Of a stretch of 44,988 nt of DNA, positions 8,485 to 44,988 are shown piece after piece. The DNA comes from a virus. Each line of letters opens with the position of its first letter. Positions within the stretch are counted from its first letter, which is position 1. The notes beneath the pieces were generated by a model. It ran no database searches. It was not told where the DNA came from and saw only the letters and a list, made by a program, of their open reading frames with translations. A program made the position numbers and the translations under genes. The stretch is from the IMG/VR virus record IMGVR_UViG_3300037193_001860, positions 1 to 44,988 of that record; one strand, 5' to 3'.

Positions 8485-8514
8485 TTGCGTAGTGCGTAGC
8501 CTACCTGCTACCTT
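8485..8514 (+). promoter_or_regulatory. Palindromic leaderless promoter-operator, copy 1
   Basis: -35 TTGCGT (8485-8490), 18 bp, -10 TACCTT (8509-8514); ATG of the next gene at 8521, 6 bases after the -10, so the mRNA should start at or next to the ATG. The palindrome GTAGTGCGTAG-C-CTACCTGCTAC (8489-8511) spans from the -35 to the -10, an ideal place for a repressor to block RNA polymerase. Confidence 0.75.
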
Positions 8515-11343: not shown

Positions 11344-11383
11344 TTGCGTAGTACGTAGGCTACGTGCTACGCTGTGTGTCTGA
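11168..11383 (+). CDS. Possible small protein, 71 aa (doubtful)
   Basis: ATG 11168 with a well placed AGGAGG seven bases upstream; MSDHWPGAAAPAYVFIPAQR at the N-terminus looks protein-like, but the C-terminal third is Arg-rich, low in information, and runs through the palindromic promoter at 11344-11373. Either the gene is real and shorter forms exist in relatives, or the reading frame is chance. Confidence 0.3.
   Translation: MSDHWPGAAAPAYVFIPAQRASSPGELLAHGRHRRGPRRHTSHGTGAWSVAAPRPSLWRCVVRRLRATLCV
11344..11373 (+). promoter_or_regulatory. Palindromic promoter-operator, copy 2
   Basis: -35 TTGCGT (11344-11349), 18 bp, -10 TACGCT (11368-11373). Palindrome 11348-11370 is GTAGTACGTAG-G-CTACGTGCTAC, one mismatch between arms. 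Here the next start (ATG 11409) is about 30 bases after the expected transcription start and has its own AGAGGAGG ribosome site, so this copy is not leaderless. Confidence 0.75.
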
Positions 11384-12715: not shown

Positions 12716-13023
12716 GCTTCTACGCCGACCTCGTCGACACGATCCCCCGCGCCCGCCGCGAGCCGAGCCCCGTCTTCCTGACCGTCCTGCGGGCGGTCGC
12801 CGACCTGGACTACGCCTACACCGCGCAGATCCTCGAGCGCGCCAAGCTCGAGCGGCGCAACGGTCGGCGGCAGCTCGACCGCGCGGTCCGCCTCGGGCTC
12901 ATCTACCGCGAGCGCGAGATCGGCGAGCGGTGGGAGCTGAAGCGGGCGCAGCGCACCTACTACGGGATCACCGAAGGCGGCCGGCGGCTGCTCGAAGATC
13001 ACGGTACGGGTGGCGTAGCATGA
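12712..13023 (+). CDS. PadR/MarR-like winged-helix protein
   Basis: 103 residues from GTG 12712. Pattern of a winged helix: VFLTVLRAVADLDYAYTAQI, LERRNGRRQLDRAVRLGLIY (recognition helix), then the wing ending RTYYGITEGGRRLLEDHG, typical of PadR/DUF24-type or phage wHTH regulators. Its 3' end overlaps the degenerate operator at 13011-13040, which drives the next HTH gene. Confidence 0.75.
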   Translation: MSFYADLVDTIPRARREPSPVFLTVLRAVADLDYAYTAQILERAKLERRNGRRQLDRAVRLGLIYREREIGERWELKRAQRTYYGITEGGRRLLEDHGTGGVA

Positions 13024-13040
13024 TGCCTACGTGTTACGTT
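13011..13040 (+). promoter_or_regulatory. Degenerate palindromic leaderless promoter, copy 6
   Basis: -35 TGGCGT (13011-13016), 18 bp, -10 TACGTT (13035-13040), and ATG at 13047, 6 bases after the -10. The right palindrome arm (CTACGTGTTAC) is close to consensus, the left arm (GTAGCATGATG) is decayed. A weaker operator in front of a DNA-binding protein gene is what one expects for an autoregulated repressor. Confidence 0.6.
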
Positions 13041-15945: not shown

Positions 15946-16130
15946 AGTTCGGCCGCTGGTACTTGGACTTCAGGCGCTATCGGAGGTCTCGCTACTGGAC
16001 GAGCGGGTTCAGGTCCGGTGGGCGCGCGACGCCGGGGCCGTGGTGGCAGCTCGCCGTCCGCGGCGTCGGCGAGCTCACCCTGTCGCGCGATCGGACACTG
16101 TTCGGTTGGGATGACGAGGCGAATCGATGA
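15942..16130 (+). CDS. Small Arg/Trp-rich protein, 62 aa
   Basis: ATGA-coupled at both ends. Begins MKFGRWYLDFRRYRRSRYWT, resembling the WRYW-rich protein at 7744-7923 in style. Function unknown. Confidence 0.65.
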   Translation: MKFGRWYLDFRRYRRSRYWTSGFRSGGRATPGPWWQLAVRGVGELTLSRDRTLFGWDDEANR

Positions 16131-17662
16131 CCGTCGGCGAGCAGCGGCGGACCGTGCGGCCGCCCGCGTTCCCGCCCGGCGTGGACGGGCACGCGCTCCT
16201 GGAGCCGTGCTACCACTCGGCGTGGCTCCTGCCCGGCCGCGGCCCCGGGGACCGGGGCGGCTCGGACTACCGGCGCGCCATCACCCGGCACGATCCGCTG
16301 CTGTTCGCCGTCACCTACCTGGGCCGCGCACTGCGCGACCAGGACACCGGCCAGATGAGCTTCTCGGACTTCCACCTGGACGCGTTCGAGCTGGCGAAGG
16401 GCTGGCGCTACCGGGAGCCGCAGCGGTCGGCGTGGGTGGCACCTCGCCGCGCCGGGAAGTCGATGCTGTGGTTCCGCGCGAACCCGCTGTGGGCGCTGGC
16501 GCACGGCTGGCGGCGGTTCTTCCTGGCGTTCGCGTACACCGAGGCGCAGGCGAAGGCGCACCTCGGGAACCTGCTCGACGTGCTCTGGCGGCGTGATGCG
16601 CCCGACCACACCGGGCACCGCATGTCCGACCTGCTGCTGAGCGACTTCCCCGAGCTCGCCCCGGTGCGCGGCGCAGGCGGACCGACGCGGACCGTGCTGG
16701 CCAGCGGGGCGACGATCGCCGCCTACGGCATGGGCGCCACACGGCTCGGCGAAATGTCGGGCACCGACCGGCCGGACCTCATCATCGGCGACGACCTCGA
16801 GCCGGGCGAGGCGGACTACGGGCCGAAGGTGAAGGCCAAGGCGGTGTCGCGGCTGCTCCAGAACGTGCTGCCGATGAACGACCGCGCCGCCGTGGTGCTC
16901 ACCGGGACGACCACGGCGCACGGCTCGATGATGCACGATGTCGTGCGGGCGGCGAAGGGCGACCAGCCGGCGCGGTGGCTCGCCGAGGAGCGGATCACGC
17001 CGCACTACTACCCGGCGATCCTGCACGAGGGCACGCCCGCAGCGCGGTCGCTGTGGGAGCAGCGCTGGCCGCTGGAGCAGCTGCTGCGCGACCGCAATAC
17101 GCGCTCGTTCGCGGTGAACATGCTCAACGACCCGCCGGCCGCGGGCGCGGGCCCGTACTGGACGCGCGAGAGCTTCATCTACGGCAACCCGCACGTCGCC
17201 CGCTGGGTGCTGTGGGTGGACCCGGCGCTGTCGACGCACGCGACCTCGGACCACACGGCAATGGTGGTCGCCGGTGCGCTGCCGACGGGCGCGGTGGCCT
17301 GGGTGGCGCACGCGGAGGCGGGCCACTACTCGCCCGCGAAGATCAAGGAGCGAATCCAGGTCATCCGCGACACCTTCCCCGGCCTGCTGGTGTGCGTGGA
17401 GGAGAACGCGACCGGCGAGGAGAACGCCCGGGTGCTCTACGGCCTCGCGCGGCATGACGAGACGCCGCGGGCCGAGGCGCGCAAGGAGCTGCGGATCCGG
17501 GCGGCGGCTGACCTGTACGACGCGGGCATGGTGCGCCACGTCCGGCCGCTGCGACAGCTGGAGGACGTGCTGGTGGAGTACCCGGCGGGGCCGCGCGACG
17601 ACCTGCCCGACGCGCTCGCCGGGGCGCTCGGCCGCGTGCTGCCCGGCCGCGTTCCCAGGTAG
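16127..17662 (+). CDS. Large terminase, copy A (early-region packaging module)
   Basis: 511 residues, within the normal TerL size. ATPase domain: Walker A VAPRRAGKS (about 104-112), Walker B DLIIGDD (217-223), and a coupling motif VVLTGTTT (256-262). Nuclease (RNase H-fold) domain: WVDPALS with D365, VEENATG with E425/E426, and DDLPDALAGAL near 496-506 carrying the third acidic site. All catalytic positions appear intact, so it should be active. It lies in the early rightward operon behind a TerS-like gene, 22 kb away from the second TerL at 38255, to which it shows no obvious similarity outside the motifs. Confidence 0.85.
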   Translation: MTVGEQRRTVRPPAFPPGVDGHALLEPCYHSAWLLPGRGPGDRGGSDYRRAITRHDPLLFAVTYLGRALRDQDTGQMSFSDFHLDAFELAKGWRYREPQRSAWVAPRRAGKSMLWFRANPLWALAHGWRRFFLAFAYTEAQAKAHLGNLLDVLWRRDAPDHTGHRMSDLLLSDFPELAPVRGAGGPTRTVLASGATIAAYGMGATRLGEMSGTDRPDLIIGDDLEPGEADYGPKVKAKAVSRLLQNVLPMNDRAAVVLTGTTTAHGSMMHDVVRAAKGDQPARWLAEERITPHYYPAILHEGTPAARSLWEQRWPLEQLLRDRNTRSFAVNMLNDPPAAGAGPYWTRESFIYGNPHVARWVLWVDPALSTHATSDHTAMVVAGALPTGAVAWVAHAEAGHYSPAKIKERIQVIRDTFPGLLVCVEENATGEENARVLYGLARHDETPRAEARKELRIRAAADLYDAGMVRHVRPLRQLEDVLVEYPAGPRDDLPDALAGALGRVLPGRVPR

Positions 17663-17665
17663 GTC

Positions 17666-17695
17666 TTCCGTAGTGCGTAGCCTACGTGCTACCTT
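17666..17695 (+). promoter_or_regulatory. Palindromic leaderless promoter-operator, copy 3
   Basis: -35 TTCCGT (17666-17671), 18 bp, -10 TACCTT (17690-17695), ATG at 17703 seven bases later. Palindrome GTAGTGCGTAG-C-CTACGTGCTAC at 17670-17692, one mismatch between arms. Starts 3 bases after the terminase stop codon. Confidence 0.75.
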
Positions 17696-18214: not shown

Positions 18215-18520
18215 CTACTTCCCCTCGAACCGCTTGCGCAGCGCCTCTCTGATCATCTGCTGCGTCCGCACGTCGGTCAGGAGCAGGCCGACGAGCTCGT
18301 CGAGCACGTACTGACCGGGTACGCGTGGCACGCCGAGCTGGACGGACTCCTCGTCGCACCAGGTGTTGAGCGCGTGGTGGCGAGCGACAGCGAGGTCCAA
18401 GGTGCGGCGGATTGGCTTAGTACGCGCGGTCGGCCGGGTGGCCGGCGCAGGGCGCTCGGGCGGCTGGAACGAAGGCGCGGACAGGCGGGCGGCGAGGTCT
18501 TCCCTCTTGCTGGGGCTCAT
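18215..18520 (-). CDS. Small ParB-like / ribbon-helix-helix partner of ParA
   Basis: 101 residues, ATGA-coupled to parA. The N-terminal 45 residues are disordered and Pro/Arg-rich; the segment KPIRRTLDLAVARHHALNTW starts with a short strand followed by helices, as in ribbon-helix-helix centromere-binding proteins, and the rest (VPGQYVLDELVGLLLTD, MIREALRKRFEGK) is helical. Small RHH proteins after parA are the usual partition adaptors in actinomycete plasmids and ParA-carrying mycobacteriophages. No parS array was proven; the dispersed palindromes are one candidate target. Confidence 0.65.
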   Translation of the reverse strand: MSPSKREDLAARLSAPSFQPPERPAPATRPTARTKPIRRTLDLAVARHHALNTWCDEESVQLGVPRVPGQYVLDELVGLLLTDVRTQQMIREALRKRFEGK

Positions 18521-19137
18521 GCGCTCGCCCCTGTCAGCAGTTCCTCGACGGCGTCGGAGTAGTCGGCGACGTGCTGGCGGCGCAACGGCACGCCCCACGC
18601 CTGTCGGTAGGCCTCGCGGTCGGGGACGATCGGGCGCAGCACTCGCCAGCCGTCGGCTTCGAGGGCGCTGCGGTACACCTCGCCGGACGCCGCGCTGCGC
18701 TTCACCTTCACGAGCAGGACGGCGGTGTGGAACTCGCCGCCGACGCTGGCCTCCTCGAGCAGCTCGTGGACGGGCGTCATGCGCTCGTGCTCGATGGTGG
18801 AGGGGGTGAGCGGCACGATGACGTGGGTCGCCGCGCGGGCCGCGGACTCGACGATGGCCTTGCGGTCGTCGGTGGGCGGGGTGTCGATGACGGTGACGTT
18901 CCAGCGGTCGCCGACGATGCCGGGCAGCTCGCGGTGAATCTTCCCCGACGGCAGGGCGATGACCGGCCAGGGGAAGCCGGCCTGCTCGCTCCAGCGCAGG
19001 AGCGAGCCTTGCGGGTCGGCGTCCACGGCGAGCACGCGGGCGCCGAGCTCGTGTAGCGCCTGGGCGACGTGAGCGGTGGTCGTGGTCTTCCCGGTGCCAC
19101 CCTTCAGGTTGAGCACCGCGATGCGTGTGGTGGGCAC
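18517..19137 (-). CDS. parA: ParA-family partition ATPase
   Basis: 206 residues from GTG 19135-19137. Deviant Walker A KGGTGKTT (12-19 with the signature Lys), VDADPQGSLLRWS (Walker A' region), VTVIDTPPTDD (Walker B), and VPLTPSTIEHERM, all standard for small plasmid ParA proteins. The -10-like TAGCGT at 19146-19151 (minus) lies 8 bases before the start. With the downstream small DNA-binding protein it makes a partition cassette, which implies stable low-copy plasmid maintenance in lysogens. No integrase gene was found in the genome, which fits. Confidence 0.9.
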   Translation of the reverse strand: MPTTRIAVLNLKGGTGKTTTTAHVAQALHELGARVLAVDADPQGSLLRWSEQAGFPWPVIALPSGKIHRELPGIVGDRWNVTVIDTPPTDDRKAIVESAARAATHVIVPLTPSTIEHERMTPVHELLEEASVGGEFHTAVLLVKVKRSAASGEVYRSALEADGWRVLRPIVPDREAYRQAWGVPLRRQHVADYSDAVEELLTGASA

Positions 19138-19204
19138 GGCGCGCGACGCTACCGGAGCTACGTACGTACTGCGACACGTAGGTACGGCGTGTCCGGATCG
19201 AGCG

Positions 19205-19234
19205 TTGCGTAGTACGTAGGCTACCTGCTACCAT
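19205..19234 (+). promoter_or_regulatory. Palindromic leaderless promoter-operator, copy 4
   Basis: -35 TTGCGT (19205-19210), 18 bp, -10 TACCAT (19229-19234), ATG at 19241. Palindrome GTAGTACGTAG-G-CTACCTGCTAC at 19209-19231. It lies 70 bp upstream of parA in the opposite direction, so a protein bound here could also influence partition. Confidence 0.75.
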
Positions 19235-19240
19235 CCAGGC

Positions 19241-38254: not shown

Positions 38255-39805
38255 GTGGCGGCCGTCGTCGACCTCGCCGAGCCGGAGACGATCCTCGGCA
38301 GCACCCTGCCGCGGCTCTGGACGCCCCCGCTCGTCGCCGGGGAGCCCGGGCCGTGCGGCTGCGGGTGCGCGCTCACGCCGAGCACGAGCTACGGCTTCGA
38401 TGTCGACGACTTCGCCCGCGACGTGCTCGACCAGCCGCTCGACCCGTGGCAACGCTGGCTTGTCATCCACGCAGGCGAGCTGCTGCCCGACGGACGCCCG
38501 CGGTTCCGCCAGCTACTCGTGCTGGTCAGCCGCCAACAGGGCAAGACGCACCTCGGCAAAGTGCTCACCCTGTTCTGGCTGTTCGTCGAACGGCAGAAGC
38601 TCGTGCTCGGCACCTCGACGAACCGGGACACCGCGAAGGAGTCCTGGCGGGCCGCCGTCGACGTGGCCCTGAGCAACGAGTACCTGTCCGCCGAGCTGGC
38701 GGCCAACGGGGTCCGCGCCTCCAACGGCGAGGAGACGCTGGCCACCGCGGCCGGATGCCGCTACCGCATCGCCGCGAGCAACCGGCGCGGCGGGCGTGGC
38801 ATGACGATCAACCGGCTGATCCTCGACGAGCTGCGCGAGCACCGCGACTTCACTGCCTGGGATGCCGCCGTGCCGGCCACGAACGCGGTGCCGGACGCGC
38901 AGGTGTGGGCCATCTCCAATCAGGGCGACGAGGGCGCCGTGGTGCTCGATGCGTTGCGTCTGCCCGCCATCGAGTACATCGAGACCGGCAAGGGCGACCA
39001 GCGCCTCGGGCTGTTCGAGTGGTCCGCGCCCGAGGAGGCCGATCCGACCGACCCCGCAGCGCTCGCCGCGGCGAACCCGAACTACGGGCGGCGCACCGAC
39101 CCGGACGCGCTACGCGGGGCGGCGCTGCGGGCCAAGGCAGCGGGCGGCGAGGAGCTGGCCAGCTTCCGGACCGAGATCTTGTGCCAGCGGGTGCACCTGC
39201 TCAGCCCGGCCATCGACCCGGACGCCTGGATCGCCGCAGGCACCGACTCCCCGGTCGACCTCGCCGAGCATCGCCAGCGGGTCGCACTGTGCGTGGACGT
39301 CAGCCTGGACGGCACGCACGCCACCCTGGCTGCGGCGGCGCAGCTCGAGGACGAGCGCGTGCACGTCGAGATCGTCGCGGCGTGGTCCGGCCCGGACTGC
39401 ACCCGCTCGCTGCGCGCCGAGCTGCCTGCGCTCGTCGAGAAGGTGCGCCCGCGAGCGTTCGGATGGTTCCCCGCCGGCCCGGCCGCCGCGGTCGCCGCCG
39501 ACCTGGCAGAGCGGAAGGGCAACCGGGCGTGGCCGCCTCGGCGAGTGCGCGTGGAGGAGATCCGGTCGGACGTCGCCGCGGTGTGCATGGGGTTCGCGGA
39601 GCACGTCATCTCGAGCCAGATCGTGCATCCTCGCGACAACATGCTGACCGCGCACGTCAACGCGGCCCAGAGGCTGCGCCGTGGCGACGCCTGGATCTTC
39701 ACCAGGCAGGAGGCGGGGGCGATCGACGGCGCGTACGCGGCAGCGGGGGCCGTCCATCTGGCCCGGACGCTCCCGCCTCCGCCGCCGCCACTGAGCGCGC
39801 TGTAA
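38255..39805 (+). CDS. terL: Large terminase, copy B (structural-module packaging ATPase)
   Basis: 516 residues, GTG 38255. ATPase domain: DPWQRWLV adenine-motif region (63-70), Walker A VSRQQGKT (91-98), GTSTNRDTAKESW (119-131), Walker B RLILDE (187-192). Nuclease domain: LCVDVSLDGTH with D348, then further acidic residues; C-terminal part VRVEEIRSDVAAVCMGFAEH. This is the HK97/Terminase_1-type family usually next to the portal, and its place here fits, but it is transcribed away from the portal. It differs from copy A at 16127, which has the PRRAGKS/IIGDD type motifs. Confidence 0.88.
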   Translation: MAAVVDLAEPETILGSTLPRLWTPPLVAGEPGPCGCGCALTPSTSYGFDVDDFARDVLDQPLDPWQRWLVIHAGELLPDGRPRFRQLLVLVSRQQGKTHLGKVLTLFWLFVERQKLVLGTSTNRDTAKESWRAAVDVALSNEYLSAELAANGVRASNGEETLATAAGCRYRIAASNRRGGRGMTINRLILDELREHRDFTAWDAAVPATNAVPDAQVWAISNQGDEGAVVLDALRLPAIEYIETGKGDQRLGLFEWSAPEEADPTDPAALAAANPNYGRRTDPDALRGAALRAKAAGGEELASFRTEILCQRVHLLSPAIDPDAWIAAGTDSPVDLAEHRQRVALCVDVSLDGTHATLAAAAQLEDERVHVEIVAAWSGPDCTRSLRAELPALVEKVRPRAFGWFPAGPAAAVAADLAERKGNRAWPPRRVRVEEIRSDVAAVCMGFAEHVISSQIVHPRDNMLTAHVNAAQRLRRGDAWIFTRQEAGAIDGAYAAAGAVHLARTLPPPPPPLSAL

Positions 39806-43741: not shown

Positions 43742-44080
43742 TCAGCGCCTGCGGATCTGGCACGCACGAAGAGCGCCTTGCGCCTGCTCCAGGGTCTCAA
43801 ACGGCGTCCCAGCGGCTGCGATCTCTAGCGCTCGATCGATGTCCACTTCTGCGGCGGATGCCACGCCGACCCAGCACGTTCGGCCGCGCGCCCGCTCCCA
43901 CTGAGCGAGCAGGGTCGGGGCAGTGTCGCCGACGAACCGAACCGCCTTTGCCCGGCCGTCCCGGGTGATACTGGTGACCACTCCGACTCGCGTCACGCCA
44001 CCCCAGAGCGGCGCGCCAGGTCCAAAGTCGCGGTGCATCTCCGCAATCACGGCCAGGTCCCCGCGCTTCGCCTTCTTCAT
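43742..44080 (-). CDS. Hypothetical protein from a leaderless mRNA, 112 aa
   Basis: ATG 44078-44080, 6 bases after the -10 of operator copy 5. MKKAKRGDLAVIAEMHRDFG, WGGVTRVGVVTSITRDGRAK, then a helical end. The beta-rich first half looks like an SH3-like small barrel. Its direct control by the palindromic promoter suggests an early or immunity-related role, but no function is recognised. Confidence 0.7.
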   Translation of the reverse strand: MKKAKRGDLAVIAEMHRDFGPGAPLWGGVTRVGVVTSITRDGRAKAVRFVGDTAPTLLAQWERARGRTCWVGVASAAEVDIDRALEIAAAGTPFETLEQAQGALRACQIRRR

Positions 44081-44086
44081 GAGAGA

Positions 44087-44116
44087 AGAGTAGCACGTAG
44101 GCTACGCACTACGCAA
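44087..44116 (-). promoter_or_regulatory. Palindromic leaderless promoter-operator, copy 5
   Basis: On the minus strand: -35 TTGCGT (44111-44116), 18 bp, -10 TACTCT (44087-44092), ATG 6 bases later. Palindrome, read on the plus strand, GTAGCACGTAG-G-CTACGCACTAC (44090-44112). Confidence 0.75.
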
Positions 44117-44122
44117 CGAGGA

Positions 44123-44365
44123 TCAGGACTCGCCGTCGAGTGCCGCGATCGTCCGACAGTCCGTCCACGGCCAGCTCTCCTCGTCCGACGTGAAGCCGCA
44201 CCCCGGGCAGTCCTCGTACTTGTCCGGCGAGTGCAGCTCCCGCACTCGCCCGATCGCGGTGCCTCGGCGATCCAACTCGCCGAGGACGTCGTCCAGGTCG
44301 CCGGGGTTGAGGTCCGTCCTGCGCCCGGCGAGGTAGTCCCGCAAGCGGTCGATTGCCGCGCTCAT
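44123..44365 (-). CDS. Hypothetical protein, 80 aa
   Basis: ATG 44363-44365 with GAGGAAGTAGACGATC upstream. MSAAIDRLRDYLAGRRTDLN, then a segment DCPGCGFTSDEESWPWTDCR with CxxC and a later C that may bind zinc. Closest minus-strand gene to the iteron array and transcribed from it, so it may be a replication or copy-control factor. No family recognised. Confidence 0.7.
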   Translation of the reverse strand: MSAAIDRLRDYLAGRRTDLNPGDLDDVLGELDRRGTAIGRVRELHSPDKYEDCPGCGFTSDEESWPWTDCRTIAALDGES

Positions 44366-44429
44366 GATCGTCTACTTCCTCTAGTTGTTGATCTTCAAAA
44401 GACCGGGACGCGGGACGTGCGGTACAGCG

Positions 44430-44456
44430 GGACCGCCCTTATAAGGCGGGCGGTCC
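44430..44456. other. Stem-loop with AT-rich loop beside the iterons
   Basis: GGACCGCCC (44430-44438) and GGGCGGTCC (44448-44456) are perfect inverted repeats; the 9-nt loop is TTATAAGGC, one of the few AT-rich spots here. A hairpin with an AT loop next to iterons could be a DNA-unwinding or primase-priming element, or a terminator for readthrough. Confidence 0.55.
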
Positions 44457-44604
44457 TGTCCCGCGGCGGTGTCGGTCGTGTCCCGCGCATGTCCCGCAGA
44501 TGTCCCGCTGCTGGTCAGAGCGTCCCGCAGTTGTCCCGCACTGTCCCGCAGCCGTGTCCCGCAGATGTCCCGCGGGACACTTTGCGGGACACGGCTTGTC
44601 CCGC
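44457..44604. repeat. Iteron array, candidate replication origin
   Basis: Eleven exact copies of TGTCCCGC: starting at 44457, 44479, 44490, 44501, 44532, 44542, 44555, 44566 and 44597 on the plus strand, and at 44572 and 44584 on the minus strand; near-copies at 44410, 44427 and 44521. Most neighbours are 10-13 bp apart, i.e. about one helical turn. Copies at 44566/44572 form the palindrome TGTCCCGCGGGACA. The array ends 47 bp before the 3' end of the primase-helicase gene, the usual neighbourhood of a plasmid-type origin. Together with the PrimPol-helicase and ParA it argues for replication as an iteron-controlled plasmid. Confidence 0.8.
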
Positions 44605-44651
44605 AGATTTCCGGGAGAAACCGGACATTCGGGACTCCCCTTCTGGACCGG

Positions 44652-44988
44652 TCAAGAGACGTACTGCGGGGCGATCAGGAAGCGCGCTTCAGTGCTCCCA
44701 GGGCCCACGATCCCGGCGGTCGACAGCAGCCCCAGGGCGGCGTGCACGGAGCTCCTGTGGTGCGTCCTGGGGCCCTCCGACAGGGCTCCCTGGATCTCCC
44801 CCTGGGTCATGCCGCGTTCGCCCCCGACGAAGCGCAGGAGGCGGTAGATGTCGATGGCAGCCTTCTTGCCCTTCCCCTTGTTGGCCGCCGCCGCCGCGGT
44901 GATGACGTCCAGGACGTCGGCGGGCACCTCGGGAGCCGCGAGCGAGTGCCACTGCTCATCCACGCCGAACGGGCTGTCGTCGGGCGCC
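44652..44988 (-). CDS. Primase-polymerase / helicase fusion, C-terminal part (continues at 1-2114)
   Basis: Last part of the 769-residue protein: VDEQWHSLAAPEVPADVLDV, a Lys/Ala-rich hinge (ANKGKGKKAAIDIYRLLRF), then GMTQGEIQGAL and HRSSVHAALGLLSTAGIVG, a winged-helix domain suited to bind the adjacent iterons. Stop TGA at 44652-44654. The same frame continues from base 3 of the window. Confidence 0.9.
   Translation of the reverse strand, partial: APDDSPFGVDEQWHSLAAPEVPADVLDVITAAAAANKGKGKKAAIDIYRLLRFVGGERGMTQGEIQGALSEGPRTHHRSSVHAALGLLSTAGIVGPGSTEARFLIAPQYVS
44848..44988. repeat. Right copy of exact 141-bp terminal repeat
   Basis: Identical to bases 1-141; see the left copy. It lies inside the primase-helicase gene, which argues for an assembly overlap of a circular molecule rather than a packaged terminal repeat. 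Confidence 0.95.

Follow-up and report, generated by a model that had tools for sequence, protein, structure and literature searches.

A candidate iteron-type replication origin directly behind a primase-helicase gene in a GC-rich circular phage genome

Introduction

Positions 44364-44604 of a 44,988-base virus record, the whole of which is called the window here, very probably form the iteron-type replication origin of a phage. The site consists of an array of short repeats that are helically phased, lies just behind a replication gene, and includes a small palindrome and an AT-rich stretch; the same plan recurs in relatives. Thus, it possesses the phased short direct repeats near an initiator gene, as well as the adjacent AT-rich region, by which iteron origins are recognised. 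An iteron origin adjoining the replication gene had been proposed in an original prediction, and comparison with relatives, in which both its layout and its palindrome recur, now supports it strongly. Origins are known for few phages outside the model systems. The layout offers an origin pointer for a large and mostly unstudied group, namely iterons around a TWWA-centred palindrome just behind a RepA-like primase-helicase gene.

The phage and its genome

The first 141 bases of the record are identical to its last 141 bases (1-141 and 44848-44988), and the record is therefore a circle of 44,847 bp. Since 141 is a common assembler word length, we judge this end overlap to be probably technical, an assembly artefact rather than biology. 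Its GC content is 71%. With ORFs for portal, head protease, capsid, tape measure, endolysin, terminase-like proteins, helicase, exonuclease, methylase, and ParA, the record is a full tailed phage and not a satellite or cassette. Two different ORFs resembling terminase large subunits, 16127-17662 (phrog_38) and 38255-39805 (phrog_9), are present in this one genome; neither gave a Pfam or NCBIfam match. No integrase was found among the ORFs scanned, which include some of the small ones, and Rfam and tRNA scans found nothing. Weak protein matches point to an actinobacterial host. Additionally, a probable partition locus (see below) suggests that the phage is plasmid-like, maybe with a plasmid-like prophage. 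Close relatives were sought in three ways. A near-identity search with 25 kb of the window against a phage collection gave no match, primase patterns found none in viral contigs, and a portal-based search yielded one contig of 14.7 kb, which has no array.

Architecture of the iteron array

The 8-bp repeat TGTCCCGC occurs in 14 exact copies in the window, 11 of which are packed into 44457-44604 (nine on the plus and two on the minus strand). Shuffles of the whole window contain on average 4.1 exact copies anywhere and at most 11, and the region 44410-44604, with its 11, was matched by no more than one copy in any of 2000 dinucleotide shuffles. Other 8-mers elsewhere never exceed six copies per 150 bp. 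The predicted cluster of eleven exact copies is therefore real and far beyond chance. Near-copies had been predicted too and are present, numbering four with one mismatch (44410, 44419, and 44427 on the minus strand, 44521 on the plus strand) instead of the three counted earlier. The plus-strand copies follow one another at 22, 11, 11, 31, 10, 13, 11, and 31 bp, and the proposed 11-bp helical phasing is borne out, R being 0.91 (random p = 0.0002) for the best-fitting period in the range of 10-12 bp.

Three parts can be distinguished in the array. The main block, on the plus strand at 44457-44573, comprises eight direct copies starting at 44457, 44479, 44490, 44501, 44532, 44542, 44555, and 44566, together with the near-copy at 44521. 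It runs into a three-part end at 44566-44604, which is composed of the head-to-head palindrome TGTCCCGCGGGACA (44566-44579), an inverted copy (44584-44591), and a direct copy (44597-44604). The far block, at 44410-44434 beyond the central palindrome, holds the three inverted near-copies. The last copy is located 47 bp from the stop codon of the primase-helicase gene (44652-44654), the very distance given in the original prediction, and the palindrome noted there corresponds to the head-to-head TGTCCCGCGGGACA. A single strand of the region forms a far better fold than shuffled versions do (z -7.1), which is expected because of its inverted repeats. GC skew, which had been suggested as a check, shows no clear flip at the array.

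The hairpin with TTATAA that had been noticed at one side of the repeats is likewise genuine. It extends over 44430-44456 (GGACCGCCCTTATAAGGCGGGCGGTCC) and separates the main block from the far block, and its innermost perfect part is CCTTATAAGG at 44438-44447, the only perfect AT-core palindrome in the genome with at least three flanking pairs. Iterons stand on both sides of CCTTATAAGG in mainly opposite orientations; GTCCCGC, read on the strand of the gene, occurs ten times reverse and twice forward before the palindrome, and once reverse and twice forward after it. The hairpin was also considered as an intrinsic terminator, and this was rejected, as it has no T-run and was not called as a terminator.

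At one end of the array, 44364-44403 is a candidate unwinding element with 36% GC compared with 71% for the genome. Of all 36-mers in the genome, the one that begins at 44364 and abuts the array has the lowest GC (36%). The stretch lies as well upstream of the next ORF, which encodes 80 amino acids of no known family on the minus strand (44123-44365). The AT-richness is thus suggestive rather than conclusive, and the stretch may be just the promoter region of that ORF.

The adjoining primase-helicase gene

The gene beside the array is on the minus strand and runs from 2114 to 1 and over the circular junction into 44847-44652; the joined ORF encodes 769 amino acids. Its helicase domain is of the RepA-like hexameric type, matching Pfam AAA_25 (E 1e-31) and PHROG primase/helicase families, and when a profile of six homologous helicases, including that of the window, was compared with the PDB, RSF1010 RepA (1g8y) ranked first (E 1.3e-11). 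The N-terminal domain is AEP/PrimPol-like by its motifs only (DLD, SGGG, and RLAGSVHRK); it gave no Pfam or PDB profile match, and no sequence match to RSF1010 RepB'. The N-terminal third shares 32-34% identity with the N-terminal parts of a Nonomuraea plasmid protein and of the protein of locus L211 (34% with the PrimPol-like part of the latter), whose C-terminal half is a P4-family primase/helicase (TIGR01613).

A winged helix at the C-terminus, as originally predicted, is plausible from the look of the sequence. Pfam gave no match there, and a single-sequence AlphaFold model (pLDDT 48.5) was uninformative, so neither confirms it. Moreover, a profile of actinobacterial counterparts did not match the C-terminus (E about 1), and the closest C-terminal look-alikes, Shagrat gp98 and Superphikiman gp144, have no array.

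The 769-aa product is probably an all-in-one initiator, which would provide binding, melting, helicase loading, and priming at the origin. Its C-terminal domain, by analogy the iteron-binding part, would contact TGTCCCGC copies along a single helical face, so that the protein builds up on the array. Opening of the AT-rich stretch, the CCTTATAAGG palindrome, or both would follow, then loading of the RepA-like ring helicase and priming by the AEP-like domain. Host polymerases would copy the circle, in the phage itself and perhaps also in a plasmid prophage partitioned by ParA. Iteron-based copy control is known in plasmids, and the built-in copy control suggested in the original prediction may be a further role of the array.

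Recurrence of the layout in relatives

Selecting loci by the repeat would be circular, and relatives were therefore taken by homology of the replication protein alone. The RepA-like helicases are too divergent for a pattern-based search from an alignment. Among the loci chosen by replication protein, a 7-mer cluster of 5-12 copies, above shuffles, lies directly behind the gene in 10 of the 16 phage and plasmid records. Each such array lies 3' of the gene, and the repeated words are TGTCACG with p101 of Rhizobium phage 16-3 and in RHph_X2_25, TGTCCCC in Salicola CGphi29 (the weakest of the ten), TGTCCCA in ct3Oc712, TGTACCG in Idiomarinaceae 1N2-2, TGGTTCA in Alteromonas XX1924, TTTATAC and TTCCAGC in two Roseobacter phages, CTTCCGC in EBPR siphovirus 5, and TGTCCAC in Nonomuraea plasmid III, where the homology is confined to the N-terminal domain. 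Several iterons of the form TGTNNC are thus found in a set chosen without TGTCCCG. In 12 Actinomycetes loci, arrays exceed all shuffles in three and are seen by eye in approximately four more (about 7 of 12); here too the iterons differ, as with TGTCCAC in L230 and GTCTCAC in L238. Other stretches of the compared loci mostly contain at most four or five copies, and one contains seven. Homologous initiators with differing iterons provide natural sets for working out how a DNA-binding domain reads its repeat. No description of iteron-bearing origins in phages with RepA-type helicases was found in the literature.

The central palindrome recurs too. An AT-core palindrome with TWWA or a similar core interrupts the iterons in many of the compared origins, for instance CCCCTCTTTAGAGGGG in L230, CCCTGCCTATAGGCAGGG in L231, ACACCCCTATAGGGGTGT in L058, ACACACCCTATAGGGTGTGT in L106, and AAACCCTTTAGGGTTT in L222, alongside CCTTATAAGG in the window. 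Of 40 loci with arrays, 17 have such a palindrome at p<=0.05 against shuffles, and of 10 array-free loci none has one (Fisher p 0.010). With the TGTCCCG-selected loci excluded, the figures are 7 of 18 and 0 of 10 (p 0.03); these p values are indicative only, because the loci are not phylogenetically independent and the definition was made after the first examples. The majority orientation of the iterons flips across the palindrome in about 14 of 19 loci.

The TGTCCCG core in other viruses and genomes

Viral contigs were scanned for two TGTCCCGC at 11-bp spacing. At least 120 contigs with TGTCCCG were obtained, at least 91 of which carry 4-25 copies within 300 bp, compared with 44 contigs, 12 of them with at least four copies, for a control pattern of the same letters (CGCCCTGTNNNCGCCCTGT). 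Matches to three tandem copies in genomes are spread over many phyla, with alphaproteobacteria frequent. In a literature search with TGTCCCGC, the matches listed were solely primers and unrelated items, and a search for iteron together with TGTCCC found nothing relevant.

In class A (at least 49 viral and at least 11 genome loci), the gene that contains the TGTCCCG array encodes a winged-helix relative of the SPP1 gene 38 product (tblastn 33.6%, E 1e-8). DnaB or Toprim-DnaB helicases are the neighbours in sampled loci, and the AT-richest spot of the locus adjoins the array in 41 of 53. Sulfitobacter phage pCB2047-A is a member of this class. The SPP1 stretch examined contains no TGTCCC. As a side observation, gp38/DnaD-like genes of Staphylococcus phage PVL (about position 2270 in L174) and phi879 (about 2267 in L176) contain the internal short repeats AACATCAA and AAAAGACA, an in-gene origin layout with other iterons.

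In class B (at least 23 viral loci, three genome loci, and the window), the array directly adjoins a gene for a RepA-like helicase at its 3' end; in 27 selected loci it begins within about 100 bp of the stop codon or overlaps it. Likewise, the array of L211 stands behind a gene for a PrimPol-P4-type helicase, and that of L062 is near a DUF5906/RepB-primase protein. The C-terminal domain of class B has a predicted winged-helix topology (pLDDT 82), and a Foldseek search with this model listed JetABC at the top (E 0.011), followed mostly by winged-helix proteins, none below 0.001. By hhalign, the class B C-terminal domain, the class A N-terminal domain, and the C-terminus of the window protein have no detectable similarity to one another. 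The idea of a winged helix common to the TGTCCCG classes was dropped on this negative result, and a common domain is accordingly not claimed.

Some further arrays have arrangements of their own. In L091 (3168-3380), L115 (10519-10731), and L038 (182-394), three TGTCCCG and three inverted copies at 11-bp steps are placed symmetrically about 160 bp apart; those of L091 and L115 sit directly behind an ORF, which in L091 is related to a PHROG DNA primase. L068 (2364-2637) and L046 (4562-4859) carry very dense arrays, with 25 and 20 TGTCCCG in both orientations, and the ORFs beside them gave no convincing match to a replication protein.

The repeat, which the original prediction had not assigned to a known Rep protein, can now be linked to several initiator families, none of them experimentally studied. 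Judged by sequence, the initiators sharing TGTCCCG appear to be gp38-like organisers with DnaB partners, Toprim- and PrimPol-RepA-like helicases, and PrimPol-D5/P4-type helicases. It is a tentative and rather doubtful proposal that TGTCCCG is an origin element common to phages, on which unrelated initiators converged or whose core they exchanged, together with a palindrome-centred layout shared among the helicase-type initiators. If true, origins move between initiator modules, or the sequence has a second reader such as a primase start preference or a host factor. TGTCCCG was itself the search word, and part of the sharing may therefore be selection. Why initiators with no detectable relationship should have the same TGTCCCG core is a question raised by these data; the initiators may have converged, their domains may be related too distantly to be detected, or a second factor may also read the sequence.

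Alternative explanations

The array might serve functions other than replication. As the phage encodes a ParA-family ATPase (18517-19137), a parS-like centromere of its partition system is conceivable: iteron-like centromeres exist, for example that of pMF1 (PMC3235114), and some mycobacteriophages have an extra direct-repeat parS just downstream of repA (PMC7157519). However, the array is about 19 kb from parA by the shorter arc of the circle, and the parA region (18517-19137) contains no copies of TGTCCCGC and has repeats of its own upstream of parA. A similar array, moreover, follows the helicase gene in many phages selected by the helicase alone, and a centromere is distinctly improbable. 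The region 18215-19240 is itself a probable partition locus, in which the minus-strand ParA gene is followed by a 101-aa ORF without a family match, a possible ParB-type partner, and is preceded by ACGTAC-rich repeats.

Iteron initiators commonly repress transcription too, and the AT-rich stretch borders on the point where the 80-aa ORF begins (44365), so that the repeats could be regulatory operators through which a repressor or the replication protein controls this small ORF or the replication gene. This is very unlikely. In class B loci the array follows the replication gene at its 3' end instead of preceding it; no sigma-70-type promoter was found in 44000-44988, which carries little weight in a GC-rich actinophage; and six 23-bp palindromes, mostly upstream of ORFs, are a better candidate. 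These sites (GTAGNNCGTAGSCTACNNNCTAC) lie at 8489-8511, 11348-11370, 13015-13037 (a degenerate copy), 17670-17692, 19209-19231, and 44090-44112, although no copy would be expected by chance, and most of them immediately precede the start of an ORF; they form a candidate set of dispersed operators or promoters of a phage regulator. Extremely unlikely is a packaging (cos/pac) or attachment site. Repeats do occur at some terminase binding sites, and the phage is circularly closed in the assembly, but the array is away from the terminase-like genes (16.1-17.7 and 38.3-39.8 kb), and comparable arrays track the replication gene. An iteron origin remains the preferred reading.

Comparison with known replication systems

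In the SPP1 system, gp38 binds direct repeats within its own gene, next to an AT-rich unwinding element (PMC6316719). Origins of the SPP1 gp38 and lambda O kind have iterons inside the initiator gene, an AT-rich neighbour, and a DnaB partner. The at least 49 viral and at least 11 genome loci with TGTCCCG inside an SPP1-gene-38-related gene are alike in this respect. The window differs, as its array is outside the gene and a profile search of all its ORFs found no gp38-like protein. In pRN1, an essential stem-loop lies just downstream of the ORF904 gene, and no iterons are identifiable (PMC4234260). ORF904 is a single protein that unites a primase-polymerase, a helicase, and a winged helix at the C-terminus, as the window protein would with its putative winged helix, whereas the pRN1 stem-loop of about 100 nt is unlike the hairpin of the window. 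Furthermore, the pRN1 helicase is of a different type.

Closer parallels are found in mobile islands and IncQ plasmids. The C-terminal domain of SaPI Rep and of SCCmec Cch2 binds iterons just behind its own gene (PMC7581432), and in PICIs the origin follows rep on the 3' side and has an AT-rich region between two sets of iterons (PMC6092414). The window shares this anatomy, with its probable origin immediately 3' of the initiator-helicase gene and two iteron sets around a central weak point, the candidate melting site. Unlike the PICI/SaPI systems, which have a SaPI Rep/P4-type helicase in a phage-inducible chromosomal island, it has an AAA_25/RepA-like helicase of RSF1010-RepA (RecA-fold) type, fused to an AEP-like domain and set among phage genes. 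Its centre is a short AT-core palindrome, with the AT-rich stretch at one end. At RSF1010 oriV, the iterons are bound by RepC, the DNA is unwound by RepA, and priming at the exposed hairpins falls to RepB' (PMC4234260, PMC4538821). A RepA-type hexameric helicase and iterons with short hairpins at the origin are common to both, and the AEP-like N-terminal domain of the window protein may be a counterpart of the RepB' primase. The three proteins of RSF1010 are probably replaced in the window by one polypeptide for all three jobs, and no candidate for a separate RepC-like protein stood out among the ORFs scanned. Thus, the probable origin of the window has working parts resembling those of PICI origins and RSF1010 oriV.
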